Assembly (NCBI GenBank): GCA_015069195.1 | Contig: SVJA01000002.1 | Coordinates: 186,001-250,000, forward strand | DNA from: Oscillospiraceae bacterium | Lineage (GTDB): Bacteria; Bacillota; Clostridia; UBA1212 | DNA length: 64,000 nucleotides | Direction of reading: 5' to 3' | Part shown: positions 20,388-64,000 of the stretch, one piece after another | Position numbering within the stretch: position 1 is the first letter of the stretch | Layout: every line of letters begins with the position of its first letter | Position numbers and translations under genes: made by a program | The notes under the pieces: model-generated | What the model saw: the letters and a program-made list of their open reading frames with translations, nothing else | The model's database searches: none | Told to the model about the DNA's origin: nothing

Positions 20388-20461
20388 TAGCGCAGTCTTG
20401 ATGTTTGTGGTATTATGCATATGTGTAATTTTAATTGCAGCAATTATTCCCGGAGGAAATC

Positions 20462-21553
20462 ATGAAAGCGGTAATATTGATCCCGACATATAAGCCGGAT
20501 TTTCACTTTATTGATTTTGTAAAAGAGTTAAAAGAAAGAGATCTTCCCATGTTAGTTGTAAATGACGGCAGCGGAGATGAATTCGATCATTTTTTCACTG
20601 AGGCTGAGGAAATCGGTGCTAAAGTTGTTCATCACGATGTAAACAGAGGCAAGGGAAAGGCTCTTAGAACAGGTTTTGCGGCTATAAAGGAAATTTTCAC
20701 AGACGCAGAGGGCATAGTCACTGCAGACTGTGACGGCCAGCATACAACAAAAGATCTTTTGCGCGTGATAGATACGATGGAACAAAACCCGAAAGCGATC
20801 ATTATCGGCGGAAGGTTTTCCAAAAAAGACGATGATGTTCCGGTTCGTTCGCAGATAGGTAACACGATTACACGTTGGGTTTTCAGACTTGCCACCGGAC
20901 TTAAAATAAGAGATACACAGACAGGTCTTCGCGGCATCCCCGCTTATTTGTTTGACAAAATGGCAGAGCTTAAAGGTGACCGCTACGAGTATGAAATGAA
21001 TATGCTTTTGTACCTCAAAGAGTGGTCGATTCCGTATGTGGAGATTCCGATAGAGACGGTTTACTTTGATAACAACAAGCAGTCGCACTACAATACGCTC
21101 AAAGATTCATGGAGAATTTTCAAGCAAATATTTAAGTACTGCATATCATCGATTTCATCATTGCTTGTCGACTATATAGCATTTATTTTGCTGAACACTT
21201 TTGTATTCAACGGAGGATTTGACCTTGCGGCTGTGCTTACGGAAGCACTTCCGGAGAGCTTGACTTTTCTCGTGAAAAATATGAGTCTTGCATATCTCGT
21301 TGCGCGTGCGATAAGTTCTGTATTCAATTACATCCTTAACAGTAAGGTTGTTTTCCACGCATCAAGCAAAGGTATGGTAGTCAAGTATTTTACATTGGTC
21401 ATCGTGGTGGCAATAGTCGGTTCTTTCTTTACCGAGCTTCTGATAGGTCTCGGTTTGCCGTCATTACTTTGTAAGATAATCGTTGATGTACCGTTGTTCT
21501 TCTCGAATTATTTTATTCAAAGAGAGTTTGTGTTCAAAAAGAAAATAAAGTGA
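20462..21553 (+). CDS. GT2 glycosyltransferase fused to a GtrA-like membrane domain
   Basis: A 363-residue bifunctional protein. Residues 1-220 are a GT-A glycosyltransferase of the dolichol-phosphate-mannose-synthase type (ILIPTYKP start, VVNDGSGDEFD, acceptor-metal motif ADCDGQH, then IIGGRFSKKD and DTQTGLRG). Residues 230-360 hold four helices of the GtrA family, including FNYILNSKVVF and FFSNYFIQREFVFKKK. Such fusions are thought to make and move undecaprenyl-phosphate sugars for surface glycan decoration. The ATG at 20462 follows CGGAGGAAAT. Monocistronic, with a strong terminator behind. Confidence 0.88.
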   Translation: MKAVILIPTYKPDFHFIDFVKELKERDLPMLVVNDGSGDEFDHFFTEAEEIGAKVVHHDVNRGKGKALRTGFAAIKEIFTDAEGIVTADCDGQHTTKDLLRVIDTMEQNPKAIIIGGRFSKKDDDVPVRSQIGNTITRWVFRLATGLKIRDTQTGLRGIPAYLFDKMAELKGDRYEYEMNMLLYLKEWSIPYVEIPIETVYFDNNKQSHYNTLKDSWRIFKQIFKYCISSISSLLVDYIAFILLNTFVFNGGFDLAAVLTEALPESLTFLVKNMSLAYLVARAISSVFNYILNSKVVFHASSKGMVVKYFTLVIVVAIVGSFFTELLIGLGLPSLLCKIIVDVPLFFSNYFIQREFVFKKKIK

Positions 21554-54885: not shown

Positions 54886-54953
54886 CAAGGAACGCCCCTG
54901 AAAAAACCTTTTAGCGTAAGCTGAACCAGGATTTTTCAGGGGCGTTCCTTGTT
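54886..54953. terminator. large bidirectional terminator/palindrome
   Basis: CAAGGAACGCCCCTGAAAAA pairs with TTTTTCAGGGGCGTTCCTTG, with a loop of about 26 nt. It separates minDE from the convergent glycan operon. The 20-bp stem is longer than most terminators here. Confidence 0.85.
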
Positions 54954-54957
54954 TAGA

Positions 54958-55893
54958 TTAATCGAAATTAATTCGTCTTTCTTCCGTTACAAGCGGTCTT
55001 CTGAGCATTCTCTTATTTATGTTAAGAACATATTCACCGACCATTCCTACGAAGAACAGCAACACCGAACCTACGAGGTAAATGCTTATGAGTATCGGGA
55101 CAACCCACATTGACCAGAGGGGTGTATAGATGCAAGCTGCTACTATGTATGCTACTGCTAAGAACATGTTAAAGAATATCAATATAGCACCGAGGATTGT
55201 TGCAACTCTGATCGGAGTTTTTGTGTAGGATGTGAAACTGAGCATTGCTGCATCGAAAAGGCTTGCCCAGTTGTTGTGAGTTTTACCTGCACGGCGTTCG
55301 GGCTGGCAGTATTCGATTTCTTTTCTTTCTGGACCGAGCTCTGCGACTATGCCGCGTATGAACGGTGTCGGATCATCGAGTTCGCGAAGCACATCCATAA
55401 AGCTCTTGTCATAAAGTCCGAAACCGGTGAAGTGTTCTATCTGTTCGACTGTTGACATTTTTTTGATTGTCTTGTAGTAGAACGAACGTAGCGAGTAAAC
55501 AATTTTGTTTTCTTTGCTTGTGGTCTTAATTCCGCAAACAATTTTGTAGCCCTTTTCCCACTCTTCTACAAATTTGGGAACAAGTTCTATCGGATCCTGA
55601 AAGTCACAGCACATACAGATTGTGCAGTCACCTGTTGTCTGAAGCATTCCGTAAAAAGGGGAATTGAATTGTCCGAAGTTCTTTGTATTGAAGATGGCTT
55701 TTATTTTTTTGTTTCCGGCACAAATTTCTTCTAAGTATTTTCTTGTGCAATCTTTTGAATCGTTATCAATAAAAAGTATTTCGTAGTCATATTGGGGAAG
55801 CTCTTTTTCGAGCATCTCGCTGACTGCTTCGCTTATTGGCTTTACATTTTCTTCCTCGTTGTAACAAGGAATCATAATACTGATTTTTTTCAT
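54958..55893 (-). CDS. GT2 glycosyltransferase with two membrane helices
   Basis: A 311-residue protein of the GtrB/ArnC type. The GT-A domain (MIPCYNEEENVKPI, FIDNDSKDCT, metal motif CCDFQDPIELV, GFGLYDKSFMD) is followed by two C-terminal helices at about 225-290. It probably transfers a sugar from a nucleotide donor to undecaprenyl phosphate. This is the last gene of the ThDP/HAD/aldolase/epimerase/GT2 operon and so likely uses the sugar made by those enzymes. It starts 28 nt after the epimerase gene. Confidence 0.9.
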   Translation of the reverse strand: MKKISIMIPCYNEEENVKPISEAVSEMLEKELPQYDYEILFIDNDSKDCTRKYLEEICAGNKKIKAIFNTKNFGQFNSPFYGMLQTTGDCTICMCCDFQDPIELVPKFVEEWEKGYKIVCGIKTTSKENKIVYSLRSFYYKTIKKMSTVEQIEHFTGFGLYDKSFMDVLRELDDPTPFIRGIVAELGPERKEIEYCQPERRAGKTHNNWASLFDAAMLSFTSYTKTPIRVATILGAILIFFNMFLAVAYIVAACIYTPLWSMWVVPILISIYLVGSVLLFFVGMVGEYVLNINKRMLRRPLVTEERRINFD

Positions 55894-55920
55894 AAAATCT
55901 CAAACCTTTCGATGTTGTAA

Positions 55921-56844
55921 TCAAAGTCGTGACTTATACCATTCGACAGTTCTTTTTATGCCTTCTTCGAAACTGACCGTGGGAACGAATCCCGTGTCGC
56001 GTGTAAGAGGCTCTATGTCGGCGCACAAATACATAACCTGTTTATCAAAATAGGGCACTTCGCCAAAGCCTATTTCCTGCGCAGGGTTTACCATGTCACG
56101 TATTATGGTGATATATTCTTTTAGCGGACGCACATTTCCGCTACCTATACAATAAACACTTCCGTCAATTCCTTTTTCTGCGGCGCAGTAGAAAGCGTTT
56201 GCGGCGTCGTCGCAGTAGAGATAGTCCCACATTTGCTCGCCTTTGGTGTACTGCGGTCTTTCACCGTTAAGCATTTTTATGATGCCCGACATAACCATTG
56301 TCTGAGAACCGTCAAAAGGTCCGTAAGTACTGAGTATACGTACCCAGATGTGTCGGATGTTTAATTTTTTACACTCAATGCGACTCATCTGTCCGGCGCA
56401 AAGTTTTGCTATGCCGTAACCGTTTTCAGGGAAGGTCGGAAGAGTGGGGGAGATTTTCACTCCGTCTGCAACTCGCCCGTATTCTGCCTGAGAACCTGCA
56501 CCCAAAAAGACGCTGCAACCGAGTTTATTCGCAAGATATACTGCATCGATGGTATTCTGGATGTTTTTATTCTGGAGATGCATATCGTTTCGTGCATCCC
56601 CGTAAGTGCCTTCCCAACCGAAGTGGAAGAATGCATCATACTTTTCTCCCTCGGGGATCGGAGCATTCGTAAGTTCCTTAAGGTCACATTCTATTGTGCT
56701 TACAAGAGGACTTTTCGGTATATTATTTGCTTTTTTTGAATCGGGTCTGATAATCATCAGAACTTTTATGTTTTTGCTTATCAGATGTCTTACCAAAGCA
56801 AGTCCGAGCATTCCCGTACCGCCTGTGATAACTGCGCTTTTCAT
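55921..56844 (-). CDS. NAD-dependent epimerase/dehydratase
   Basis: A 307-residue extended SDR protein. The NAD motif is GGTGMLGLALVRHL near residue 8. The catalytic pattern should be Y-x-x-x-K, seen as YGIAKLC. LGAGSQAEYG and RILSTYGPFDGSQ fit sugar-nucleotide epimerases/reductases. Within this operon it could reduce or epimerise a nucleotide-bound keto sugar. The start is at 56844, with GGAG upstream. The aldolase gene ends 4 nt before the start codon region. Confidence 0.88.
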   Translation of the reverse strand: MKSAVITGGTGMLGLALVRHLISKNIKVLMIIRPDSKKANNIPKSPLVSTIECDLKELTNAPIPEGEKYDAFFHFGWEGTYGDARNDMHLQNKNIQNTIDAVYLANKLGCSVFLGAGSQAEYGRVADGVKISPTLPTFPENGYGIAKLCAGQMSRIECKKLNIRHIWVRILSTYGPFDGSQTMVMSGIIKMLNGERPQYTKGEQMWDYLYCDDAANAFYCAAEKGIDGSVYCIGSGNVRPLKEYITIIRDMVNPAQEIGFGEVPYFDKQVMYLCADIEPLTRDTGFVPTVSFEEGIKRTVEWYKSRL

Positions 56845-56848
56845 ATTG

Positions 56849-58429
56849 TTACTCCGCGAAAAATGATGGAGTTATAAACTCTAAATCGATTTTTCTTCTT
56901 ACTTTTTCAATCTCTTCTTTTATCGCTTCGTTTTTTCTGCGGATTGTTTCAGGTGAAAATCTGAATTCAAGTCCGCTGTTTACATAGTTTGAGTTTGTGT
57001 TGATGTCATACCCATCAATACCTGCAATGCAAATCTTTGACGCACCAAGCTCTATCATAAGTTTCATACACATAAGTCCGGAGTTGTCAATTGTTTCCGG
57101 TGTGTCACCTGAGAATGATGAGAAGTTTACCATATAATCTGCGTTCTTTACTGTACGAAGGTTAGATGTGACAATCTTTTTTACAAGTTTGTTGTCTTTG
57201 ATTTTTTTATATCTTCTCATATGACAACTGAACACATAGTCAGGTCTTATGTTTTCCGGTATGAAATTAAGTGTGATGACAACGGTATTTTCCTCTGCCA
57301 TCTTTTCTTCTATTCTTTTTTTGTTTGCTATGATGCTCTTTCCGGGAGCAATCAACAGAATATTCTTTCCGCTGAGTTCTGTTCTGAGTAGAGCGATTGT
57401 GTCTTTGTCATCAATGTAGTTTTCCTGATATTCAATATATACGCGCTCTGCTACTGCCTTAGAATACTCTGCTTTTTCTTTCGGCGGAATTGATTTAAGT
57501 ATTTCGTTAAATGATTTAACGGTAAGTGTTCCTTTTTCTGCAAAGTAGTTTGCATAGTTAGGGTGACATTGGTTTGTTGCCGAAAGGTAGAAAGGAAGTG
57601 AATATCCCCAGAAATGTCTTGTGTAAATTTCGTTCAGATATTCGTCAATGATTTCGAGCATCGGTCCTATTCTGTATTCTTTACCGAAGTTTTCGTTCAA
57701 AAATCCTGCAAAGATTTCCATGTTAAGATTTCCTGCGCCTCGTCCCATTCCGAATACACAAGCATCTATCATAATATTTCTTTTGAAGTTTTGTTCAGTC
57801 ATCGCCTCGGCATTACCGAAAGCCTGCTGTAGATTGTTATGAGAATGGTATCCGAGAGCTACTTGCGGACAAAGGTTATGGTCTGCAAGCTGCACCCAAC
57901 GGATAAAGTCACGGCGTTTGATTACGCCGAATGTGTCTACTATGTAGAATGCAAAGGGTGAAAGTTCGTTGAATTTTGTGATGACGTCTATAAACTCTTT
58001 GTCGGTGTAGCCGTCAGTTCCGACCGGCTGAACGAAAAGTTTATATCCGAGCTCCTGAACTTTTTTGCAGTATTCAAAAGCTTCTTCAATTTTGTGCTTC
58101 TTGAATATTACACGGATGGCATCTATAGAGTCTTCTCGGCAAGGACCGAATTTTTCGATATCGAGCGGTTTACTCATATCAACCATTCCGACGTACGTTG
58201 TACCCGGAACTTTCGGCTGGATCATTTCCGCGATCTGATCGTTTGTTGAAAAGACCGAGCGGTTTTTGTCATATGCCACTTCTTTCAAAAAGCCTATTTC
58301 AAAATATTCTACACCTGCACGTGCGATTTTCTGCCCGATGTCATATATCGCCTGTTCGCCGAATTCCCAATTGTTTATGTATCCGCCGTCACGAAGTGTG
58401 CAGTCAAGCAAACTGATATTGTTTCTCAT
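56849..58429 (-). CDS. aldolase (HMGL-like TIM barrel) with a DUF115-like C-terminal domain
   Basis: A 526-residue two-domain protein. Residues 1-285 are an HMG-CoA-lyase-like DRE-TIM barrel: LLDCTLRDGGYINNW carries the catalytic Arg-Asp and metal Asp, and GYHSHNNLQQAFGNA carries the metal His pair. This family includes 4-hydroxy-2-oxovalerate aldolases and acyl-transfer synthases. Residues about 355-526 form a second, Rossmann-like domain (ILLIAPGKSIIANKKR, VVITLNFIPENIRPDYVFSC, GASKICIAGIDGYD) that resembles DUF115/Maf-type proteins. The fusion suggests formation of a C-C bond on a sugar or keto acid followed by handling of the product. Exact reaction unknown. Confidence 0.8.
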   Translation of the reverse strand: MRNNISLLDCTLRDGGYINNWEFGEQAIYDIGQKIARAGVEYFEIGFLKEVAYDKNRSVFSTNDQIAEMIQPKVPGTTYVGMVDMSKPLDIEKFGPCREDSIDAIRVIFKKHKIEEAFEYCKKVQELGYKLFVQPVGTDGYTDKEFIDVITKFNELSPFAFYIVDTFGVIKRRDFIRWVQLADHNLCPQVALGYHSHNNLQQAFGNAEAMTEQNFKRNIMIDACVFGMGRGAGNLNMEIFAGFLNENFGKEYRIGPMLEIIDEYLNEIYTRHFWGYSLPFYLSATNQCHPNYANYFAEKGTLTVKSFNEILKSIPPKEKAEYSKAVAERVYIEYQENYIDDKDTIALLRTELSGKNILLIAPGKSIIANKKRIEEKMAEENTVVITLNFIPENIRPDYVFSCHMRRYKKIKDNKLVKKIVTSNLRTVKNADYMVNFSSFSGDTPETIDNSGLMCMKLMIELGASKICIAGIDGYDINTNSNYVNSGLEFRFSPETIRRKNEAIKEEIEKVRRKIDLEFITPSFFAE

Positions 58430-58447
58430 AATAAACCTCGTTATTTT

Positions 58448-59197
58448 TTAAATCATTTTCAAAATGTCTGATATTTTATCTACACATACGGTATCTGAAT
58501 AACCGTTGCCGATAAAAATAGAAGGACATCCTTTTTCTTTTGCCATTGCGATATCTGTTTCGTATGTATCGCCTATCATTATCAATTCTTCGTTCTCAAG
58601 TCCGTTTGTTTTGCAGATAAGATCCAGCATGTATGTGCCGGGCTTACCTATCATAGCATCACATTTTTTATTGCAACACCATTCGATAGCTGCAACCATG
58701 GCACCACAGCCGGGATAACTTTTTTGACCTTCCCCAAGAAAATGTCTGTCGGTATTGCATGAATATACACTTTTGGCACTAAGTCCTGCACGAAGTGCAA
58801 GTGTCATTTTATCATAAGTATATTTTGAATCACAGCCGATGATAAGATTTTCTGCTTCTTCAGGAACTTCAGTATACGAAACACCGATGTCGGCGAATTC
58901 TTTTTTCAACATGTCTGTGCCGGAAATATACAAATTTTTAAGATCTTTTTCTCTTGCAAAACAGGCCGAAGCATAAGCTGCGGTCATTATATCTTCTTCA
59001 GTACAGTCGATTCCCATTCCACGAAGCTTTTCTGCAACCTGATCACGCACTTTTGTTGAATTGTTGGTGACAAATATCACTTTTATATTTTTGGATTTAA
59101 GTGCATTTATCACGTCAAGCGCGCCGTCGATGATTTTACTTCCGTAGTAAATCGTTCCGTCAAGGTCAAAGGCGGCTGTCTTTATATTACTGAACAT
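58448..59197 (-). CDS. HAD-IIA family phosphatase (NagD-like)
   Basis: A 249-residue cytoplasmic phosphatase. Motif I is AFDLDGTIYYGSK with the nucleophile Asp, motif II IFVTNNSTKVRDQ, motif III lysine in MIGKPGTYML, and motif IV MIGDTYETDIAMA. The cap is of the C2A type, typical of NagD-like sugar or nucleotide phosphatases. In this operon it may dephosphorylate a sugar-phosphate intermediate. It lies between the ThDP enzyme (14 nt) and the aldolase (18 nt) and follows AAGGAG. Confidence 0.9.
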   Translation of the reverse strand: MFSNIKTAAFDLDGTIYYGSKIIDGALDVINALKSKNIKVIFVTNNSTKVRDQVAEKLRGMGIDCTEEDIMTAAYASACFAREKDLKNLYISGTDMLKKEFADIGVSYTEVPEEAENLIIGCDSKYTYDKMTLALRAGLSAKSVYSCNTDRHFLGEGQKSYPGCGAMVAAIEWCCNKKCDAMIGKPGTYMLDLICKTNGLENEELIMIGDTYETDIAMAKEKGCPSIFIGNGYSDTVCVDKISDILKMI

Positions 59198-59211
59198 AAC
59201 AAAACTCCTTA

Positions 59212-61029
59212 TCAGAAGCTACCTACAGGAGCTATTATCATATTTTCTCTGAGTTCCTCAGGGTCAAGGAACGGTGCGAGATCTTCGAGCGGTGCAGAAA
59301 CCAAGGTGCCGTCTTCGAGTCTCTTTGTAGCGGATTTCGGCTCAAAATTCTGTGTCTTTGAAACAAACACTTCGCATATAAATGAACCTTCTTTTGCGAA
59401 TGCCTTTGCAAGTGCAGCTTTTATCTCGGCATTATTGCAACAAGCGCAATAATCATATCCGTAAACATACGCAAGTTTTTCCATGCTCGGAAAATCGAGA
59501 TCATGGCTGTCTTCACCGACACCTACCAAAGGCTCACCAAAGAAGTTCGACTGAGTCTGTCTGATAGAGTGGTATCCGCCGTTGTTTATAACAAATATCT
59601 TTATAGGAAGTTTGTTTGTGATGATGGTCTGTAATTCCTGGAGATTCATCTGGATACTTCCCTCGCCTGTGAGACATACGATTTCTCTTCTGCCTTCTGC
59701 TACACAAGCACCGATAGCTGCGGGCAGGTCATATCCCATAGATGCGATAGCCGAGTTTATGATAAATCTCTGACCTTTCTTTATGGTGTATCCATGGCTT
59801 CCGACAACACAAGCAGAACCGTTACCTACAACGGTTGTGTAGTTTTCGGGAAGTGAATTGCTGAGTTCTTTTATGAAAGCATATACATTTGTTCTGCCTT
59901 CTGCTTCGTAATGCTTGGGAAGAACAACAGGGTATCTCTTTTTCCAACCGATACATTTTTCTCTCCAAAAATCTTCGCAACCTGTTTCGACACCTTCAAA
60001 TGCGTCGTATAGCTTTTCCATAACGTCCTTTACATCTGCGCAAACGGGAAGTTCTACATGAAGAGTGGGTTTCTTTAACTCTTCGGGATCAACATCAACC
60101 ATTATAACTTTGGCTTCTCTTGCCCATGTCTTGAAATTGTAACCGACCTGTCTGATACTGAGACGGCTGCCGAGTGAAAGTACGAGGTCACTGTTTTGAA
60201 CTGCAAAGTTTCCTGCACGGTCACCCATAATACCGGCTCGTCCTACATAGTTGTCATCATCGTCTGCAATGAGGTCAATGCTGTTCCAGCCTGTTACGAC
60301 AGGAATGTTTAATTTTTTGACAAGCTTAACAAAAGCATCATATCCGCCGGAAGTACGAATGGCGCTGCCTGCATTTATAACAGGACGTTTTGATTCGATA
60401 AGCATTTTCTTGATTTCGTTTATAGTATCAGCAGAAACCGGAGCGGGTTTTTCTGATTCAAATTCTTTTTCGTCAAATTCGATAAGGTCTTCTGTTTCGA
60501 TATATGCGCCCTGAACATTGAGTGGAATATCAAGCCAGCAGGGACCGGGTCTGCCTGTTTGAGCAAGGAACAATGCTTTGCTGAGGCAATATTTTATTCT
60601 GAGCGGATCAATAACCATCTCACAGTATTTTGTCATACACTCAACTGATTTTGTGATGTCAAACTCCTGGTCACCCATAGCTCTGAGGTTAAGACCGGTG
60701 CTTCTGGCGGTGGTGTCATAACGAACCTGTCCGGAAAGAATAAGCATCGGAATAGAGTCGAGCCAACCGCCTACAACACCTGTGATGGCATTGGTTCCGC
60801 CGGGACCGGTAGTGACGCAGACTGCTGCGATTTTATTATGAATACGAGCATAACTTTCTGCTGCAATAGCACAAGCCTGTTCATGGTGGTTGTAAACACA
60901 TTTAAGCCCGGGATTATGTCCGAGACCGTCATTAAGATGCATTGCACCGCCGCCTGTAAGGGTAAAGACGGTATCAATATCATGTGATGCTAAAAACTCT
61001 GCAATGTAGTCAGATACTTTTATTTTCAT
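59212..61029 (-). CDS. ThDP-dependent enzyme, acetolactate-synthase-like
   Basis: A 605-residue ThDP enzyme of the acetohydroxyacid synthase superfamily. The N-terminal domain has the catalytic Glu in YNHHEQACAIAAESYARI, then TTGPGGTNAITGV. The FAD/central domain is degenerate-looking. The C-terminal ThDP-binding motif is LTGEGSIQMN...NNGGYHSI (GDG-like, with GEG). Its place in a glycan operon rather than with ilv genes suggests attachment of a two-carbon unit to a keto sugar, as YerE does in yersiniose synthesis. The start at 61029 follows AGAGGT. First gene of the operon, with a promoter at 61087-61115. Confidence 0.85.
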   Translation of the reverse strand: MKIKVSDYIAEFLASHDIDTVFTLTGGGAMHLNDGLGHNPGLKCVYNHHEQACAIAAESYARIHNKIAAVCVTTGPGGTNAITGVVGGWLDSIPMLILSGQVRYDTTARSTGLNLRAMGDQEFDITKSVECMTKYCEMVIDPLRIKYCLSKALFLAQTGRPGPCWLDIPLNVQGAYIETEDLIEFDEKEFESEKPAPVSADTINEIKKMLIESKRPVINAGSAIRTSGGYDAFVKLVKKLNIPVVTGWNSIDLIADDDDNYVGRAGIMGDRAGNFAVQNSDLVLSLGSRLSIRQVGYNFKTWAREAKVIMVDVDPEELKKPTLHVELPVCADVKDVMEKLYDAFEGVETGCEDFWREKCIGWKKRYPVVLPKHYEAEGRTNVYAFIKELSNSLPENYTTVVGNGSACVVGSHGYTIKKGQRFIINSAIASMGYDLPAAIGACVAEGRREIVCLTGEGSIQMNLQELQTIITNKLPIKIFVINNGGYHSIRQTQSNFFGEPLVGVGEDSHDLDFPSMEKLAYVYGYDYCACCNNAEIKAALAKAFAKEGSFICEVFVSKTQNFEPKSATKRLEDGTLVSAPLEDLAPFLDPEELRENMIIAPVGSF

Positions 61030-61086: not shown

Positions 61087-61115
61087 AGTTTATCACAGTG
61101 TATAATTGCTGTCAA
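61087..61115 (-). promoter_or_regulatory. promoter of the ThDP-to-GT2 operon
   Basis: TTGACA and TAAACT separated by 17 nt on the minus strand. The leader then contains two direct TTGTGCG repeats 16 nt apart before the ribosome binding site. Confidence 0.65.
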
Positions 61116-61170
61116 TTAAAGCCTTTCTTGAAATTTCGAACACTGAACAAAAGTTGAATTTAAGAAATGA

Positions 61171-61195
61171 AAAAAGACGGTTGAACCGTCTTTTT
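61171..61195. terminator. terminator between the GtrII-like gene and the ThDP operon
   Basis: AAAAAGACGGT pairs with ACCGTCTTTTT across a TGA loop. The T-run is present on both strands. Confidence 0.85.
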
Positions 61196-61229
61196 CAACA
61201 CAATATAAGTTTTTGCAAAATTAAAAATT

Positions 61230-62864
61230 TTATCCGAATTTAACTATTACAAAATCCTCGGTATCAAGTATTTCAAATGATGATTTTTCAGGCGTCATAG
61301 TTTCTGCAATTTCTATTGCCTTCTCATTTTGCTCGTGGGTGCCTTGTATAAAATTGTAGCCTAAATATTCAAAGTATCTGAGCAATTCTGTATTTACTTC
61401 ATCGAATGCAAACATACCCCATGAAATTACGGATCCGTGTTGTTGCCCAGCGGGGAGATGCATATTACCAATTTCATCCGATTGGATAACTGAATGTACT
61501 ATAGTGTGTATAACTTTGAAGAGTGGTGTGCCTTCTCTTATGAATATATAGTTGAGCATTTCGTCAGAGAGGGTATATTCACCTACAAATAAAACCGGCT
61601 TTGAGTCAATATCATAGTGTTTCTTAAGCGTATCACCTACGGTAATCATAACTGCTTTTTCTTCTTCGCTTCGCTGATAATCAATATTAAACCATTTTAA
61701 AAGGCTTGCTGTCTGACAAAAAATTAAAAGTGATGCAACAGATATAGAGAGTATTTTTTTCCATTTGATTTTTGTGCTCAATGCTTTATGTAAAATAATT
61801 ATTAAAAAAATACCGCAAAAAATTACCATACTTTGAATATTTCTGTAAAGCGTGAGTCCGGATCTCATAAAACTGAATGCAACGATTGAGAAAATCATTC
61901 CGGCAAAGTAGAGGATGTAAAATCCGTGTTTACATTTGATTGTGTATTTTATTGAGATAACCAATCCGAGGATAGCTGATATAAGGAAAACCATTATCGG
62001 GAAATATTTGAACGCAGCACAGAATAAATGTGTAAATAAAATGAAGAGAGTGTTTTTTACATTAAGTCCTGTCATTGCATTTGTAGCATTGTCACTGGGT
62101 ACGATACAACTTAATTTCATAACTGCATTTGATATGATGAATTCCAATGCAATGGCAACCGCTAGTATGCCTACATACCAGCCTATTTCCGTGAAAATTT
62201 TCTTTGGTGTTTGTCTTTTTTTGAAATCTGATTTTATGGTATCATCAATACAAGGAAGAAAACCTTCTGCTACCATATGTTTTATGAAGAATATGCCGCA
62301 AACCGCACACGAATACACAAGAATAAATGATTCGTACAGTGATATATTGAAAATCCATATCAAAATGCAAGGTAGCAGAAGAATGTATTTTTTTGTTTCA
62401 AAAAATCGCTCAAAAATTATGAGGGACAAAAAAGTGAGTGAATAGCCTATTGCAATATTAAGTCCTGCGCCGGCGTAAAGAAAGATTTCATTTATGAGTG
62501 GGAATGTTACAAAAAAGCAAGCAAAGAAAGTATAAACTCCATAGTAAAGAGCATTTTTAGTAGCTCTTTTTAAAAAAAAAGCAGCAAAGATTCCTGCAAT
62601 AAACATGAATATCATTGCAACCAATTCTTCCCAAAACGGTGTGTATTCAGTGAATCCGAACAGTAAGTCTATTAATGTTCCGCTGAAACGTCCTTGCGCG
62701 ATATTTTCTCCTCCGCCTACATAACGGGTACGTGTGAGGTCATCTATTCCTATGGAAAAATGGAAAAGAGTATAACCATACCCAAGCAAAGTAACGGCGA
62801 AAAGCGGCAATATGAATTTCAAATCACATACCAGATTTTTCAGATCTTTAAGAAAGCCTTTCAT
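61230..62864 (-). CDS. GtrII-like membrane glucosyltransferase-domain protein
   Basis: A 544-residue membrane protein with about eleven helices and a C-terminal soluble part of about 130 residues. The N-terminal loop after the first helix carries FSIGIDDLTRTRYVGGGEN, with acidic residues as in the GtrII-type glucosyltransferase domain family. Such proteins use undecaprenyl-phosphate sugars to decorate surface polymers outside the membrane. It could use the product of the neighbouring GT2 enzyme. Its start overlaps the preceding GT87-like gene by 17 nt. Confidence 0.82.
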   Translation of the reverse strand: MKGFLKDLKNLVCDLKFILPLFAVTLLGYGYTLFHFSIGIDDLTRTRYVGGGENIAQGRFSGTLIDLLFGFTEYTPFWEELVAMIFMFIAGIFAAFFLKRATKNALYYGVYTFFACFFVTFPLINEIFLYAGAGLNIAIGYSLTFLSLIIFERFFETKKYILLLPCILIWIFNISLYESFILVYSCAVCGIFFIKHMVAEGFLPCIDDTIKSDFKKRQTPKKIFTEIGWYVGILAVAIALEFIISNAVMKLSCIVPSDNATNAMTGLNVKNTLFILFTHLFCAAFKYFPIMVFLISAILGLVISIKYTIKCKHGFYILYFAGMIFSIVAFSFMRSGLTLYRNIQSMVIFCGIFLIIILHKALSTKIKWKKILSISVASLLIFCQTASLLKWFNIDYQRSEEEKAVMITVGDTLKKHYDIDSKPVLFVGEYTLSDEMLNYIFIREGTPLFKVIHTIVHSVIQSDEIGNMHLPAGQQHGSVISWGMFAFDEVNTELLRYFEYLGYNFIQGTHEQNEKAIEIAETMTPEKSSFEILDTEDFVIVKFG

Positions 62865-64000
62865 TTGACAACACCTGTACTTCCTTTTTTGTAAATTTGT
62901 TTAGTAATACAGAAAATAAATTTTTACAACCTTCGCTGAATGCAACGACCGTAGCAAGCCCTACCGCAAAGCTTGATACTTTTTCCATTGCGTAGCGTGT
63001 CCAGAGTTTTGTGGACGGTGCTACGGCAGGGATAGGTGCAAAAATTGCTATGAAGCAAAGAATATAGAAATACGTTAAAAGTTTGTTTTCTTTTTCATTA
63101 TCGAGAAGCATTACGAGCGGCAGGATAAAGAACACCAACATATAACTTGTGGTGACTTTCGGAAAACCGTAAATTACACAACAGCAAAGGAGTACGGACT
63201 TCCAGCGCTCTTTTACCGTGAAAACTCCTATTATCGAAAGTCCTGTCATTACATAGTTGAAAATATTTGATACTGCTTTGAGATCAAATGCTTTTATGCG
63301 CAGAACGTTCAGAACATATAAAATCATTTTTGAAAAGTTCAATTGGTCGGTATCTTTCATGCCTCGTATATCAGAATTTGATGAAATGTTTTTAAAAAAC
63401 AAGCCGATGCTTTCAAATCCGTTATAGAAAACAAAGAACGGAACAATTGTAAACAGTATGCAGTAAATTGCGGCACGGAGCAATTCTTTGTAATGTTTTT
63501 CTTTTAGAAGTAATGCTCCGAATGCAATGGGATAAAGTTTGAATCCTACGGCAAGACCGAGAGAAATCAGAGCAATTTCTCTTAACACCTTATTTTCTGA
63601 GTCATAGAACGTAAGGAAAATTATTGAAAAAATGAGAGGTATGATTATATTGTTTCCGCGATCCATCATAAACAAAAAAGGTGCGGACAGAACTATAAGT
63701 GTTGTAAAGAGCAGTTTTTCGGATTTTCTGCCTTGCTTGAATTCATTTAGTGCAAAGATAAAAAGTATTCCCGAAATTACGGCAAATATCATAAATCCGT
63801 AAGTAAATCCCTGATATATTTTCATAGCCGGCGGCTGGAGAACAAGAGAGGGGTCTTCTATGAGTTTATCGTAAATATTCATAGGTACGAGAATCCCCAT
63901 AACCTTGTAGAAAAGCATAGCAAGCGGAGGATACATAACCTTGTTTGCGTACGGATCATCGGAGTATGAATAAACAACGCTGTTGAAGTGATCCATAAAA
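62848..64000 (-). CDS. GT87-like membrane glycosyltransferase, truncated at the window edge
   Basis: At least 382 residues of a membrane protein with about nine helices; the frame stays open to the window edge and the true N-terminus lies outside. DPYANKVMYPPLAML is the YPP motif of DUF2029/GT87 polyprenol-phosphate-mannose-dependent transferases, and MDRGNNIIIPL is a conserved loop with Asp-Arg. The C-terminus is a short cytoplasmic tail. It overlaps the GtrII-like gene, so these two are one transcript, ending in the hairpin at 61171-61195. Its substrate is inferred only from family. Confidence 0.78.
   Translation of the reverse strand, partial: FMDHFNSVVYSYSDDPYANKVMYPPLAMLFYKVMGILVPMNIYDKLIEDPSLVLQPPAMKIYQGFTYGFMIFAVISGILFIFALNEFKQGRKSEKLLFTTLIVLSAPFLFMMDRGNNIIIPLIFSIIFLTFYDSENKVLREIALISLGLAVGFKLYPIAFGALLLKEKHYKELLRAAIYCILFTIVPFFVFYNGFESIGLFFKNISSNSDIRGMKDTDQLNFSKMILYVLNVLRIKAFDLKAVSNIFNYVMTGLSIIGVFTVKERWKSVLLCCCVIYGFPKVTTSYMLVFFILPLVMLLDNEKENKLLTYFYILCFIAIFAPIPAVAPSTKLWTRYAMEKVSSFAVGLATVVAFSEGCKNLFSVLLNKFTKKEVQVLSNERLS

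Follow-up and report, generated by a model that had tools for sequence, protein, structure and literature searches.

In a 64,000-nucleotide stretch of the genome of an Oscillospiraceae bacterium (contig SVJA01000002.1, positions 186,001 to 250,000; hereafter the window), we found a minus-strand operon at 54958-61029 whose five co-directional genes encode, in order of transcription, a thiamine diphosphate (ThDP)-dependent enzyme, a HAD-IIA phosphatase, an aldolase fusion, a short-chain dehydrogenase/reductase (SDR) and a GT2 glycosyltransferase. This operon probably represents the second half of a pathway for a long-branched cytidine diphosphate (CDP)-sugar, in which the aldolase product would serve as the donor for the ThDP enzyme. 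A preliminary description of the window had assigned the operon to an unusual branched or extended sugar, a view that is supported by the affinity of the ThDP enzyme to YerE, by RfbFGH genes in the same genome and by a conserved gene neighbourhood. The aldolase, which that description left without explanation, would thereby gain a coherent role as the maker of the keto-acid donor. The genes and domains of the operon are:

59212-61029, minus strand: YerE-like ThDP-dependent carboligase with three TPP Pfam domains
58448-59197, minus strand: HAD-IIA phosphatase with DLDGT and GDTYETD motifs (TIGR01460, 111 bits, cut-off 100)
56849-58429, minus strand: HMGL-like aldolase with an extra C-terminal domain (whole fusion gene)
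57416-58429, minus strand: N-terminal domain of the fusion (residues 1-338), DmpG-type metal-dependent pyruvate aldolase by fold and conserved residues
56849-57412, minus strand: C-terminal domain of the fusion, with the fold of archaeal HPPK (MptE) and GT42 sialyltransferases
55921-56844, minus strand: SDR of the NAD epimerase/dehydratase type, with GGTGMLG and, at residue 143, YGIAK
54958-55893, minus strand: GT2 related to ArnC/PgfS, with a hydrophobic C-terminal part

In the proposed pathway, RfbF, RfbG and RfbH, encoded on another contig, would supply CDP-4-keto-3,6-dideoxyglucose. From pyruvate and an aldehyde (probably an aldose phosphate), the aldolase would form a 4-hydroxy-2-keto (3-deoxy-2-ulosonic) acid, from which the HAD phosphatase could strip a phosphate. 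The YerE-like enzyme would decarboxylate this keto acid and attach what is left of the chain at C-4 of the CDP-4-keto sugar, the SDR would reduce the new ketone, and the ArnC-like GT2 may transfer the sugar to polyprenyl phosphate, so that membrane transferases, with the GtrII- and GT87-like neighbours as candidates, could attach it to a surface glycan. We infer all of these reactions, chiefly the use of the aldolase product rather than pyruvate as ThDP donor, from what can be read in the sequences, namely the gene identities, the presence of RfbFGH, the YerE-type affinity, the conserved neighbourhoods and the aldolase fold.

The proposed order of aldolase, HAD, ThDP coupling, SDR and GT2 draws on two known long-branched sugars. 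The YerE-like enzyme of erwiniose biosynthesis, ErwE, refuses pyruvate and prefers 4-hydroxy-2-oxo acids, and the caryophyllose enzyme MMAR_2332 behaves similarly (PMC12247030). Caryophyllose is a 3,6-dideoxy-4-C-(1,3,4,5-tetrahydroxyhexyl)-hexose (PMC5706390), in whose branch a methylene group adjoins the former ketone carbon, which fits the decarboxylative transfer of a pyruvate aldol product.

A YerE-like carboligase and its CDP-sugar partners

Among solved structures, the window enzyme matched 8rph best (389 bits), followed by 5ahk (238 bits), which was deposited as acetolactate synthase II and which we take to be PpYerE, and by a plant acetolactate synthase (222 bits). The 8rph sequence carries the CDG motif given for the YerE-like enzyme JanthE (PMC12247030). 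The highest NCBIfam match was the acetolactate synthase model TIGR00118, whose cut-off of 538.35 bits was not reached (337.9 bits). A separate IlvB-IlvN gene pair is present elsewhere in the genome, and no IlvN partner was found among the genes of the window operon. In a quick tree, the YerE-like rows stood apart from both IlvB references (97), with long branches meeting near PpYerE, where details are unsafe. By these sequence comparisons the ThDP enzyme is YerE-like and not IlvB, and the grouping with IlvB-type synthases that the preliminary description had named as the outcome to look out for did not appear. The enzyme may catalyse carboligation to a ketone acceptor, and its conserved aldolase context points to a 4-hydroxy-2-oxo acid as donor. 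Its ThDP cofactor motif reads TGEGSIQMN (GEG...NN). The corresponding triplet in the aligned homologs whose motif is readable is GDG, with a single NDG; within the aligned set, this aspartate-to-glutamate change is confined to the genome of the window.

A matching sugar precursor could be made by the same organism. RfbF and RfbG are encoded above their family cut-offs on contig C6 of the genome, and an RfbH-like gene adjoins them. These three families make CDP-4-keto-3,6-dideoxyglucose. This compound is the acceptor of YerE (PMC12247030). The 4,6-dehydratase gene that the preliminary description had advised looking for beyond the window edge thus lies, together with RfbF and RfbH, on another contig.

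The association of these genes is not restricted to the window. A close homolog of the ThDP enzyme occurs in 20 of 291 sampled genomes of the class, the window's own included, and homologous ThDP, SDR and GT2 genes recur across Clostridia, often sharing an operon with RfbFGH. At one locus (L034), RfbF (400 bits), RfbG (443 bits) and RfbH (727 bits), all above cut-off, directly adjoin the ThDP gene; another (L083) unites all five gene types of the window with RfbG and RfbH in the single row RfbG-RfbH-YerE-SDR-GT2-HADIIA-ALD-GtrA. The preliminary description had made its reading depend on such joint conservation, and the neighbourhood is indeed conserved in many genomes. Among the carriers of the same operon is Desulfosporosinus sp. 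BG (L056), which can be cultured. Variants of this core were also seen. At L049, a sugar C-methyltransferase (PF08484, 7434-8648) lies between YerE/SDR and GT2 and suggests further branching of the same sugar, and L051 (4266-18498) carries NeuB, a KdsC-GmhA fusion, several SDRs and a divergent YerE-like gene between RfbF and RfbG/RfbH, possibly for an ulosonic-acid donor made from phosphoenolpyruvate (PEP).

An aldolase fusion with two alternative operon partners

The structure of the full fusion was predicted at a mean pLDDT (predicted local distance difference test) of 91.9. Its residues 1-338 superimpose on the putative aldolase 3dxi (Z 30.5, root-mean-square deviation (rmsd) 2.6, 293 aligned) and on the 4-hydroxy-2-oxovalerate aldolase DmpG (1nvm; Z 28.5, rmsd 3.5, 324 aligned), and the metal-site residues R13, D14, H195 and H197, equivalent to those of DmpG/BphI, are invariant across 54 aldolase sequences. 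Unlike DmpG/BphI, the fusion carries an extra C-terminal domain, has no acylating aldehyde dehydrogenase partner among the genes of the operon and stays below the cut-off of the 4-hydroxy-2-oxovalerate aldolase family model (57.7 against 286 bits).

Because the aldolase domain occupied the Foldseek results for the full fusion, the C-terminal domain was modelled on its own (pLDDT 93.8). Foldseek with this domain gave no match under E 0.001; closer alignment revealed its likeness to archaeal HPPK (8sd5; Z 12.7, rmsd 2.8, 152 aligned) and to the sialyltransferase CstII (Z 11.6, rmsd 3.1, 159 aligned), with the next unrelated rows at Z 4.7. The window domain scores 16.2 bits against PF01973, under the cut-off of 34.6, and 14 of 52 members match that family at E 0.1. 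Both operon classes described below retain its conserved residues, so that the domain probably belongs with the aldolase step and not with CMP-sugar transfer.

A scan of genome contigs for the aldolase yielded 80 loci, 77 of which had a callable gene and were used for class counts. A YerE-like gene shares the operon at 35 of these, a CTP_transf_3/KdsB-like synthetase for cytidine monophosphate (CMP)-sugars at 36 and both at one (Fisher p 1e-13, the loci not being independent events). The YerE-linked loci further contain RfbF/G/H (21/35), SDR (20/35) and GT2 (13/35), each of which is present in 0/36 CMP-synthetase loci (Fisher p 4e-9, 1e-8 and 3e-5, respectively). Of the two CTP subfamilies, one exceeds the cut-off for a KdsB-type 3-deoxy-manno-octulosonate cytidylyltransferase (238.6 against 193 bits), and at three loci (L055, L058, L065) a PfkB protein resembling 2-keto-3-deoxygluconate (KDG) kinase adjoins the aldolase. 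The tree of the aldolase domain implies at least four switches between the classes, some CMP-type loci being nested among YerE-type ones, and no column in the aldolase alignment separates the two. Both uses therefore seem to draw on one type of product, and a 3-deoxy-2-keto acid is the class of compound that would suit either; the partner genes agree with this.

Where the fusion is absent, a HpcH/HpaI aldolase (L042, L043) or NeuB with a KdsC-like HAD (L051) can stand beside the YerE-like gene, which suggests that the donor module is swappable; no other aldolase was recognised among the scanned neighbours of aldolase-free YerE loci. More broadly, and only tentatively, we propose that the fusion of a DmpG-type aldolase with an HPPK/GT42-fold domain uses pyruvate, not PEP, to produce ulosonic acids for two mutually exclusive outlets: activation to a CMP-sugar, or use as acyl donor by a YerE-like carboligase to give long-branched sugars of about ten carbons, with HpcH/HpaI or NeuB enzymes as possible replacements.

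Some loci fall outside both classes. The aldolase fusion lies beside a TagD-like cytidylyltransferase at L052 (4683-7792), with SDR-like and ATP-grasp-like genes next to it, and at L074. In a plasmid collection, the aldolases recovered were all distant or truncated and the ThDP enzymes all distant; on a Desulfobaculum bizertense plasmid (L010, 11843-16011), RfbH and a split transketolase form one row with an aldolase that has no C-terminal domain, and the transketolase may stand in for YerE.

The phosphatase, reductase and glycosyltransferase genes

A HAD gene lies close to the aldolase in 12 of 39 YerE-type and in 16 of 36 CMP-type loci; at L093 the two are fused. An AroB-related "putative sugar phosphate phospholyase" (TIGR04425) was observed in several YerE-type operons (L042 6069-7789, L108, L112, L113 12334-13392 and L127; 437 bits in L113), as a rule accompanied by a short SDR and mostly where no HAD was visible; it might convert a terminal phosphate to a deoxy end.

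The SDR has homologs of up to 69% identity in the operon at 20 of 35 YerE-type loci, and we read it as a YerF-type ketoreductase that would act on the new branch. The label "epimerase", under which it first appeared, is better replaced by that of a reductase partner of the ThDP enzyme. The GT2 is read from its relatives as a polyprenyl-phosphate glycosyltransferase, so that the sugar could be loaded onto undecaprenyl phosphate.

Alternative explanations

The alternative that survives best, although we consider it unlikely, is a yersiniose-type pathway in which the ThDP enzyme adds a two-carbon branch from plain pyruvate, while the aldolase, as a bystander, makes with the HAD a separate compound that is activated or used elsewhere. 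It finds support in loci L034-L036, which contain the YerE-SDR-GT2-RfbFGH core without any aldolase, in the ThDP alignment, no column of which tracks the aldolase, and in a NeuA-like CMP synthetase gene encoded by the same genome (contig C22, about 22 kb). However, this gene sits with its own NeuB-like synthase, and the window aldolase is positioned between YerE and its reductase. Moreover, about half of the 77 loci have the aldolase and YerE in one operon, where CMP synthetases are avoided, and its HpcH/HpaI or NeuB replacements also stand next to YerE. Direct CMP activation within the window operon was rejected, as no CMP synthetase is encoded there and the one clear match in the genome is the gene next to NeuB. 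The NeuB-like and NeuA-like genes (C22:21100-24000, L145) form a separate, second acidic-sugar pathway.

Other observations likewise weigh against a donor function of the aldolase product in a long-branched sugar pathway. Many YerE-like loci have no aldolase, and genome-wide no aldolase match was found in 12 of 19 YerE-positive genomes. As no ThDP column follows aldolase presence, a difference in donor is not visible in sequence. The HAD is seen in only about a third of YerE-type aldolase loci, RfbFGH lie outside the operon on a different contig, and the proposed scheme gives the C-terminal domain of the aldolase no role. The exclusivity of the two neighbourhoods is inflated by shared ancestry, and the GEG motif, which replaces the GDG or near variant of the aligned homologs, means that activity of the window's ThDP enzyme is not assured.

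A later action of the aldolase is quite improbable. The fusion would then extend a branched or other sugar by aldol addition after the ThDP step, its C-terminal domain acting as a CMP- or ATP-dependent transferase, which would suit the HPPK/GT42 fold of that domain and the retention of its motifs in both operon classes; but a CDP-sugar aldehyde acceptor has no sequence support, and a free 3-deoxy-2-keto acid is what the KdsB-like and KDG-kinase-like partners suggest. An acetolactate synthase-like enzyme of branched-chain amino acid or acetoin metabolism amid unrelated glycan genes, for which the top NCBIfam rank of TIGR00118 speaks, was rejected as extremely improbable in view of that model's missed cut-off, the far higher score of YerE-like 8rph over all acetolactate synthases, the separate IlvB-IlvN pair, the lack of an adjoining IlvN and the conserved RfbFGH/SDR/GT2 context.

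Relation to known branched-sugar pathways

The yersiniose A pathway of Yersinia pseudotuberculosis (YerE/YerF) resembles the proposed long-branched pathway in its RfbF/G/H-type precursor, ThDP carboligase and ketoreductase, but, as far as we know, no aldolase or phosphatase takes part in it. It also differs in that YerE prefers pyruvate, with a donor range that ends at C3-chain transfer (PMC12247030). In the erwiniose pathway of Pectobacterium atrosepticum, the YerE-like ErwE joins a hydroxylated alpha-keto acid donor to CDP-4-keto-3,6-dideoxyglucose (PMC12247030); the window differs in belonging to a Clostridia genome and in combining its carboligase with the aldolase-HPPK/GT42-fold fusion, a HAD and a polyprenyl-phosphate GT2. 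The caryophyllose pathway of Mycobacterium marinum likewise relies on a YerE-like enzyme (MMAR_2332), and its C6 branch fits an aldol-made keto acid (PMC5706390), but it serves a mycobacterial glycolipid.

The YerE-like enzyme family, its long-chain coupling, erwiniose and caryophyllose are thus already known. In the open-access literature, where a review of the ThDP enzymes was all that came up on this point, we found neither an aldolase in erwiniose or caryophyllose biosynthesis nor a source of the hydroxylated keto-acid donor. Within that literature, the novelty appears to lie in the donor module, in its almost exclusive alternation with activation to a CMP-sugar and in the exchange of one aldolase type for another. 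The operon family is a concrete candidate for the source of this donor in long-branched sugars. It also suggests that the CMP-ulosonic acid pathways of gut Clostridia, Bacteroidota and other groups draw on pyruvate aldolases as well as on PEP-dependent synthases, and that C-branched sugars yet to be described may occur in many gut bacteria. For the synthesis of tertiary alcohols, YerE-like enzymes are furthermore of value.

Operon boundaries and neighbouring genes

The following features surround the operon:

54886-54951, no strand assigned: long inverted repeat that closes the operon before a minE-like gene, terminator-like on both strands
61087-61115, minus strand: promoter-like site TTGACA-17-TAAACT with TG before the second hexamer (10/12 consensus matches; consensus match only)
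61170-61196, minus strand: terminator-like hairpin lying between the operon and the GtrII-like gene upstream of it
61230-62864, minus strand: GtrII-like membrane glycosyltransferase, upstream neighbour (PF14264, 75.7 bits)
62848-63999, minus strand: GT87-like membrane glycosyltransferase that extends past the window edge (PF09594; open reading frame (ORF) of 443 amino acids on the contig)

The preliminary description had noted five tightly packed genes under one promoter beside GtrII- and GT87-like genes, and the ORFs, the intergenic gaps of 14, 18, 4 and 27 bp along the operon, the promoter-like site and the two Pfam matches all agree with it. The promoter-like site (61115-61087) ranks among the top-scoring ones of the region, where such matches are no more numerous than in shuffled sequence, so that only its position is informative. 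The GtrII-like neighbour is a likely user of a lipid-linked sugar. Elsewhere in the window (20435-21553), a GT2 with an attached GtrA-like membrane domain (PF04138, 29.2 bits) might act as a partner for sugars of this lipid-linked kind.

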